DNA of 64,000 nt from Campylobacterota bacterium (GTDB lineage: Bacteria > Campylobacterota > Campylobacteria > Campylobacterales > Arcobacteraceae): positions 1 through 64,000 of the forward strand of contig QMKX01000001.1 of the NCBI GenBank assembly GCA_003643835.1. The letters run 5' to 3'. The notes below the pieces were generated by a model. It was not told the origin of the DNA. It made no database searches and saw nothing but the letters and a program-made list of their open reading frames with translations. Positions 13,423 through 16,086 of the stretch are shown here, one piece after another. A program made the position numbers and the translations under genes. The stretch's first letter is position 1. Each line of letters begins with the position of its first letter.

Positions 13423-14469
<1,047 letters not shown>

Positions 14470-14555
14470 CTAAAAAATATAAATTTATATTTTTTTGGGT
14501 AAAATACAACTATCTAAATAGTTCATAGTTTAGTGAATATAAAAAAGGAAAATAT

Positions 14556-15316
14556 ATGAAAAAAATCATAAACATGAGGGGGGGGGTAAATTAACTCCTC
14601 AAATCTTTAGTAGGTTTAGTGTTTTGGCGGTTGTTGGCGTTTTGATAGCTGGTTGCGGTAGTGGCGGAGGAGGTGACGGTGGCTCTTCTGGTGGTGGAAG
14701 TAGCGCTGTAGTTGTTGAGTTCAATGGCAAAACTTATCAAGAGGTAACATCATCAAGAACTACTAAAATTTGGTTAGATAGAAACCAAGGAGCAGACCAG
14801 GTATGTGTCAGCAAAACTGATACTAACTGTTATGGCGATTTGTATCAGTGGGGTAGACAAATAAACGGTCACGAAATACGAACAAGCACGACAACAACAA
14901 CACAAATGATAGCTATAGATGATACAAATGATAGCTTTGTTTATAGCAATTCTGATTGGGCGAGCGTAGATACAGATGGCTCAGCCAGACAAGCTTTGAT
15001 GACTTCCAATGACAACGACAAGTATTGTCCGCCAAACTATAGAGTGCCAACAAAAGCGGAACTACAAGCGGAGCTTGATATAAGCACTCCATTTGATGAT
15101 ACCAATTTTGACGGGTTTCTCAAAATTCCGCAAGCAGGGTATAGATATAGTGGAGATGGAGTTTTGACAAATGTTGGACTTGAAGCTGATTTTTGGGTAA
15201 ATGACACAAACGACACAACAAATGGTTGGTCAGCTTTGATAACAAGTGGCAGTTTACAAAGTCCGCAAATTGCAAACAGAGCATATGGTTTTAGTGTGCG
15301 TTGTATCAAAAATTAA
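14556..15316 (+). CDS. FISUMP-domain lipoprotein, predicted phase-variable and out of frame here
   Basis: The body of the protein (from about 14700) matches the Fibrobacter succinogenes major paralogous domain: KIWLDRNQGA, CYGDLYQWGRQINGHE, CPPNYRVPTKAEL, KIPQAGYRYSGDG, and the end GFSVRCIKN. A normal ATG at 14556 with AAAAAAGG upstream begins MKKIINMRGG and then runs into TAA at 14592. Between them lies a run of nine G. Adding one G joins that ATG to the downstream frame and yields a complete lipoprotein signal peptide ending VLIAGC. As read, only a TTG at 14624 could start the body, and that would delete the basic part of the signal. The gene is therefore probably a surface lipoprotein switched by the G-tract. 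Confidence 0.75.
14578..14586 (+). repeat. Poly-G tract of nine bases within the 5' coding region
   Basis: Nine consecutive G occur eight codons after the ATG at 14556, in a genome where G-runs longer than five are otherwise absent from this window. Slippage by +1 (or -2) would restore the reading frame of the FISUMP lipoprotein. The position and length match contingency loci known in Campylobacter and Helicobacter. Confidence 0.85.
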
Positions 15317-15350: not shown

Positions 15351-15385
15351 ACCCCTATTATAGCTTTAAAAGTTAGAATAGGGGT
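15351..15385. terminator. Hairpin between convergent FISUMP and bioC-like genes
   Basis: ACCCCTATT at 15351-15359 pairs exactly with AATAGGGGT at 15377-15385 around a 17-base loop. On the + strand TATTTTGTATTT follows. It can serve the convergent genes on either side; its right arm touches the stop codon of the methyltransferase gene. Confidence 0.65.
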
Positions 15386-16086
15386 TATTTTGTATTTGTG
15401 TTGATATAAATAACTTCAAACTGCAAATAATCTTTATCATAATTTTGCCATAAATTTTTAGCTTCTATAAAGTTCAATTTAACACCCGCTGATACTCCGC
15501 TATTTTTGATAAATCTAAAAATATCTTTTTTGTTTTCAAACTTAAGTTTATAATTGTGTGTTTCATATTCACATAAAAAATATTTATCAAATCTTTTTTT
15601 TATACTATTTTTATCTAATATCGGTGAAATTTTTTTTGTGATATCAAAAATATTTTTAAATGTATTTGAAGTGAACATAGCTATGGCGATATTTGGCGAT
15701 ATTTTTTGTAAAATTTTTAATAAATTGTCTATATTGTTAGACCACTGTAAAGCCGAAGATGAAACAACATAATCATATCTTTCGTTTTTCAAAATTTTCA
15801 AAAAATTTGTATCATCAAAATTTGCCAGCACTACTTGTAAATTTTTATCTTTTGGGTGCTGGTCACACATAATTTGCGAAAAATCAACTGCTTTATATTG
15901 TTTTATCTCCCAGTGTATTTGTTTGTATATTTGTCCGCTACCACAACCTAGTTCGAGTATCTTTTTTGGCTCGTTTTTTATATCACGAACCACTGCCTTG
16001 CTGACAATTTTTTGAATTATATTAAAGTTTTCATATATATTCGCTTTTTTATCAAAACTATTTTGTATCTGGTTAGATGTTGTCAA
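15385..16086 (-). CDS. BioC-like SAM-dependent methyltransferase
   Basis: A class I methyltransferase of 233 residues with the SAM loop ILELGCGSGQIYKQI and the downstream YDYVVSSSALQWSNNID. The SSSALQW sequence and the opening FDKKANIYENFNIIQK are typical of BioC, the malonyl-ACP O-methyltransferase that starts pimelate synthesis for biotin. No other biotin gene is nearby, so the assignment rests on these motifs alone. It starts at TTG 16086 within the 3' end of the DHH gene (overlap 14 bases). Confidence 0.65.
   Translation of the reverse strand: MTTSNQIQNSFDKKANIYENFNIIQKIVSKAVVRDIKNEPKKILELGCGSGQIYKQIHWEIKQYKAVDFSQIMCDQHPKDKNLQVVLANFDDTNFLKILKNERYDYVVSSSALQWSNNIDNLLKILQKISPNIAIAMFTSNTFKNIFDITKKISPILDKNSIKKRFDKYFLCEYETHNYKLKFENKKDIFRFIKNSGVSAGVKLNFIEAKNLWQNYDKDYLQFEVIYINTNTK

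Follow-up and report, generated by a model that had tools for sequence, protein, structure and literature searches.

A putative phase-variable poly-G leader on a FISUMP-type lipoprotein gene in an uncultured Arcobacteraceae genus

The poly-G locus and its lipoprotein

The window, a 64 kb stretch of contig C1, belongs to the genome of an uncultured Arcobacteraceae (G000; 1.43 Mb draft in 40 contigs), which was compared with three congeners (G001, G002 and G003); loci are named below by genome and contig. At the locus, ilvC and a lipoprotein gene are divergently arranged, and the leader of the latter contains a run of nine G (Table 1). Direct reading of the sequence places the start of this run 22 nt past ATG 14556, with its first G in the eighth codon of that frame. 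The initial annotation had described a start codon with a good ribosome site that reads through nine G into a stop at TAA 14592, and each of these elements was confirmed. Tract length sets the reading frame here: the ATG frame ends just past the tract, and the passenger frame is open from 14544 to a stop at 15314-15316 (257 codons stop to stop). No ATG or GTG lies ahead of the signal peptide in the passenger frame, where the first TTG is at 14624, in agreement with the earlier description of a long frame lacking a proper start. At nine G, the rest of the n-region, the hydrophobic core and the lipobox are not joined to ATG 14556; the tract alone separates the start and passenger frames, and the annotated arithmetic, in which one added G yields a continuous frame, is correct. 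None of 20,000 Markov simulations with the same dinucleotide make-up remained open across 243 codons, and the passenger is therefore a real coding frame. A promoter scan upstream of the window gene returned no plus-strand site.

Table 1. Features of the window locus and poly-G tracts at other loci of the genus. Positions refer to the window unless a contig is named.
Feature or product	Location	Strand	Tract and frame	Basis
ilvC, ketol-acid reductoisomerase, divergent from window gene	13423..14445	-		Named by sequence inspection
Upstream leader block: TAAAAT 14500-14505 (-10-box-like), ribosome site, first codons	14484..14578	+
Ribosome-binding site AAAGGA	14544..14549	+		Direct reading
Leader frame as sequenced, ATG 14556-14558 to TAA 14592-14594; 12 codons plus stop	14556..14594	+		Direct reading
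Homopolymer, proposed slippage switch (window gene, C1; FISUMP-type lipoprotein)	14578..14586	+	G9, out of frame	Direct reading and run counts
Rest of n-region, hydrophobic core, lipobox IAGC (Cys codon 14654-14656)	14587..14656	+		Passenger frame
Passenger: mature FISUMP-type lipoprotein, 220 aa, Gly/Ser linker	14654..15316	+		Profile matches, alignment
Best-scoring PF09603 stretch	15128..15310	+		Profile search
Methyltransferase-like downstream neighbour, outside switch	15385..16086	-		ORF; sequence inspection only
Cadherin + DUF285 lipoprotein	G000:C6		G9, in frame
Beta-barrel-like protein	G000:C13		G10, out of frame
Cadherin-like lipoprotein	G000:C36		G11, out of frame
Tract in short leader ORF	G000:C16		G14
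MBOAT acyltransferase gene	G000:C17:10-21		G12	Pfam
MBOAT acyltransferase gene	G000:C28:20963-20973		G11	Similarity to C17
FISUMP lipoprotein	G001:C87		G9, in frame
Cadherin lipoprotein, orthologue of G002:C53	G001:C96		G12, in frame
Cadherin lipoprotein, orthologue of G001:C96	G002:C53		G18, out of frame
Beta-barrel protein	G002:C22		G9, in frame from TTG
Short leader ORFs with poly-G (L224, L194, L198, L186, L188)	G001:C40, G001:C26 (two), G001:C96 (22013), G002:C54, G002:C62

Inspection of the passenger frame also upheld the lipoprotein signal peptide, with a hydrophobic core and an IAGC lipobox. The FISUMP domain named in the initial annotation stood as homology, but not at the curated cut-offs of either family: the window protein matches PF09603 with E 5.5e-8 and 33.7 bits, just under the cut-off of 33.9, and TIGR02145 with E 2.8e-7 and 31.4 bits against a cut-off of 41.65. 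It is 32-48% identical to 14 related frames, and in the alignment of these 15 sequences homology spans the whole domain, with 12 invariant columns. Other FISUMP genes of the genus, at G001:C87 and G001:C40, score 89-95 bits. Judged from these matches, the window protein appears to be a divergent FISUMP relative, with a genuine but marginal match, rather than a filed member. Compared with the homologue at G002:C20, it differs by 0.41, 0.37 and 0.57 per codon at the first, second and third codon positions, which is modest evidence that the passenger may be under purifying selection.

Domain homology is shared with the FISUMP proteins of Fibrobacter and Flavobacteriaceae (PF09603/TIGR02145), and FISUMP genes form large paralogous sets, with up to 17 per genome in 'Ca. 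Ornithobacterium hominis' (PMC6421346). A PDB sequence search with the window protein returned chance matches only. Its structure model is poor (mean pLDDT 57.7) and the fold matches are weak and serve only as a hint; the top Foldseek match is the Lcl_C domain of PDB 8q4e (probability 0.90 but E 0.07). FISUMP relatives show a weak domain relation to Lcl_C (PF07603; E 1e-4 to 4e-4), and the window protein itself has no sequence match to it. Elsewhere in G000, tandem FISUMP gene pairs occur at C24:455-1833 and C9:19522-21071, and their N-termini (e.g., NMSNNTISNVAMPTDDNDAATKSYLAGKK) resemble phage tail-fibre or trimeric-fibre stems. At the start of contig C10 (2-1238, L226), frames for cadherin repeats and for a FISUMP domain overlap in different registers; they are perhaps the distal part of a frameshifted, leader-switched cadherin lipoprotein.

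Poly-G tracts across the genus

The window tract is the sole G/C run of 8 or more within the 64 kb. In G000, ten G runs are at least 7 long (lengths 7, 8, 8, 9, 9, 10, 11, 11, 12 and 14). Expected numbers, derived from the window's own run-length statistics, are about 10 for runs of at least 7, matching the number seen, but 0.35 for runs of at least 9, of which seven were observed (Poisson P ~1e-7); the genome is therefore abnormal in its excess of long runs and not in the total of G runs. Four of the seven (C1, C6, C13 and C36) lie 22-54 nt after an SD-preceded start and before a signal-peptide core, a placement with binomial P ~3e-5 to 2e-4 at an assumed rate of 3-5% of positions. Tracts at G000:C9, G002:C59 and G001:C15 follow the lipobox, in Gly/Ser linkers, and were excluded from the leader switches. 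The tracts of the two MBOAT-type genes of G000 (C17 and C28) are at homologous internal positions, and both genes are at contig ends; these tracts likely confer phase-variable O-acylation of a surface polymer.

The initial annotation had proposed a comparison of related strains as a check; at the level of species, the sister species G002 offers one. The ilvC orthologues of the three congeners are 88-89% identical, and at G002:C47 ilvC adjoins a divergent FISUMP lipoprotein gene with G9 between its start codon and signal-peptide core. This tract is at the same place as that of the window but in frame, and tract position is thus kept in the syntenic orthologue. Other genes lie beside ilvC in G001 and G003. 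A further homologue, at G002:C20, is in frame at its G9 leader; away from the tract, about 59 residues into the match (~387), it carries a second frameshift, which could be either decay or an assembly error.

Leader tracts are not universal in the genus, since none of the three G runs of at least 9 in G003 is in a recognisable leader; such tracts may have been lost there or never gained. Outside the genus, the fetched flanks of FISUMP relatives contained no G/C run of 7 or more. A genome-contig search with the FISUMP protein returned no named relative. The nearest named relative by GyrB (80%), 'Arcobacteraceae bacterium isolate GMC9.metabat2.86', has a single G8 that lacks a clear surrounding leader ORF and is followed by a separate start, and it is therefore uninformative. 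On contig C18 of G000 there is a second FISUMP lipoprotein gene with an intact start of its own. About 240 nt ahead of it, a leader-like ORF that also has a ribosome site of its own contains a G7 (C18:18755-18761, L177); this ORF is possibly an orphaned leader.

Probable slippage at the tract and alternative readings

We conclude that the locus is very probably a phase-variable surface lipoprotein gene, switched by slipped-strand mispairing and OFF at the consensus nine G, with the switch belonging to the leader. Translation would begin at ATG 14556 and pass the poly-G tract in the signal-peptide n-region. Mispairing in replication, unchecked by MutS1/MutL repair, would alter tract length. Signal peptide and FISUMP domain would be in frame with the start codon in only one register of three; cells with nine G would therefore make just a 12-residue peptide. 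The switch would reside in the leader as a whole, that is, in the upstream region, start codon, tract and signal peptide. We infer that tract length changes within the population and turns expression ON and OFF, and that the protein is exposed at the surface in an adhesin-like role.

The annotated claim of a slippage switch gains from the conserved tract position, from the occurrence of both states among other leaders, and from tract length and repair gene content; its OFF state holds for the consensus assembly only. Orthologous tracts, compared between species with one genome per species and at sites other than the window tract, differ in length: 12 and 18 in the leaders of G001:C96 and G002:C53 (ON and OFF, respectively; 85% identical over 482 nt), 14 and 10 in those of G000:C16 and G002:C62 (87% identical over 232 nt), and 10 and 9 at G001:C15 and G002:C59. 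These differences suggest instability at the DNA level. MutL C-terminal and MutS_I domains were found in none of the four genomes of the genus, and 11 of 14 control genomes have them; the absence of detectable MutS1/MutL in the genus would favour slippage. With regard to diversity-generating retroelements, one reverse-transcriptase domain frame (PF00078, E 9e-12) was observed at G000:C2:71094-71510 (L235), on another contig than the window gene and without a link to it.

Errors are common in homopolymers, and in this draft genome contigs C16, C17 and C28 break within ~70 nt of a G run, so the nine G could be a consensus or assembly error, with the true tract in frame and the gene simply expressed. 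We consider this unlikely. Out-of-frame counterparts exist in the same genome (C13 and C36), the tract would still be a slippage-prone run at a conserved place, and such an error would alter the state and not the mechanism. It is also quite improbable that transcriptional or ribosomal slippage, replacing or adding to genetic switching, always provides some full-length protein. The reading frames do meet at the tract, and nine identical bases could slip at various levels; however, what is known of long poly-G tracts in Campylobacterota is mainly slippage in replication, and the length differences between species again point to the DNA.

A pseudogene that simply broke at the G run is a very unlikely reading, even though the window gene is out of frame and the G002:C20 homologue carries its separate internal frameshift. 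About 240 codons are free of stops and other frameshifts, the sole frame break is at the tract, the conserved FISUMP columns are retained, and the same tract in the syntenic orthologue is in frame. Least probable of all is constant production of the lipoprotein from TTG 14624 with the tract irrelevant. An AGG ~10 nt upstream of this TTG and the lipobox after it would allow such a start, but it leaves just 10 residues ahead of the Cys and an n-region without positive charge, and the upstream leader, which has a start codon behind a good ribosome site, is found again in related genes and species.

Shared leaders and comparison with known systems

Phase variation by slippage at the leader, the reading preferred above, would extend to other genes of the genus. 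The leaders of G002:C20 and C47 are 93% identical over 264 nt that include the tract and signal peptide and end just past the lipobox, after which identity drops to about 40-70%. The window passenger has 48% amino acid identity to that of G002:C20 vs 36% to that of the syntenic G002:C47. Leaders at G001:C40 (FISUMP) and G001:C26 are 100% identical over 239 nt and diverge past the signal peptide, the C26 passenger being an unrelated 395-aa lipoprotein without a Pfam match. A third G001 gene there, for a DUF285 lipoprotein, has a leader 85% identical to these two; contig C26 ends in sequence that matches the beginning of the C40 leader, and the three genes may lie in tandem. G000:C36 and G001:C87 share 80% identity over 170 nt of leader and have different passengers. 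A weaker case is the window leader itself, which is 76% identical over 100 nt to that of the unrelated beta-barrel-like gene at G000:C13.

The same kind of leader thus precedes cadherin/DUF285, beta-barrel and other passengers, and FISUMP is not a special target. As near-identical leaders precede unrelated surface proteins, the unit appears to be the leader and not the FISUMP gene. We tentatively propose, at somewhat less than even confidence, a portable phase-variable leader (upstream region, start codon, poly-G and signal peptide) that was copied by recombination onto unrelated surface genes and occurs in a fused form and a split form, the latter coupled by reinitiation. Recombination is presumably how the leaders came to be shared. 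In the fused form, as in the window, the tract lies in the signal-peptide n-region. In the split form, the tract is in a short leader ORF of which exactly one register reads as far as a TGA that overlaps the downstream ATG (ATGA) and the other two end earlier; the downstream genes encode a lipoprotein or secreted protein. The TGA in this overlap is unremarkable, since many downstream genes begin ATGAAA; what is notable is that the register reaching it is open for ~20-33 codons in every case. Reinitiation would couple passenger expression to the tract, a coupling that we offer as hypothesis only, because the downstream genes possess their own ribosome sites and the loci, being partly homologous, count as about three independent cases.

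If this is true, an uncultured, small-genome Arcobacteraceae genus would be a case of phase variation evolving by switch sharing, its surface repertoire could be rewired by exchange of switch or passenger, and selection at the cell surface would likely act on FISUMP-type and DUF285 lipoproteins. Genes of this kind will be truncated or given a wrong start by automatic annotation, as in the window, where a 230-aa ORF from TTG is without a proper signal peptide. The claim that a FISUMP lipoprotein is an undescribed target stood in part: no paper joining FISUMP with phase variation was found, which is weak evidence because most subscription journals lie outside the coverage of the search, and FISUMP itself is one passenger among several. 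The FISUMP literature found for Fibrobacter and Flavobacteriaceae nowhere reports phase variation. Within the same coverage no paper on an Arcobacter phasome was found, and none on a shared switching leader was among the few matches listed.

Pathogens, and genes that each have a repeat of their own, provide most of the known contingency loci. In Neisseria, the repeats of pilC and opa are placed in the signal-peptide region. Neisseria poly-G loci and the opa CTTCT repeats represent repeat slippage in surface-protein genes (PMC5953494), and differ from the present case in phylum, in having a separate repeat for each gene, and in that the opa genes are one family. Closer at hand, the poly-G contingency loci of Campylobacter, catalogued with PhasomeIt as G tracts of at least 7 that are mostly inside ORFs, likewise switch surface-related genes of Campylobacterota at translation (PMC6321876). 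That catalogue is limited to the genus Campylobacter, and the word 'lipoprotein' is absent from its text; here, in contrast, tracts are concentrated in the n-regions of signal peptides, and leaders reappear on passengers that are unrelated. The autotransporters capC and capD have a conserved poly-G position, upstream of the start in capC and within the ORF in capD; CapC proteins have signal peptides in common, and capC tract length did not follow intact or inactive status (PMC7168839). These constitute one autotransporter family with related passengers, whereas the passengers described here are unrelated.
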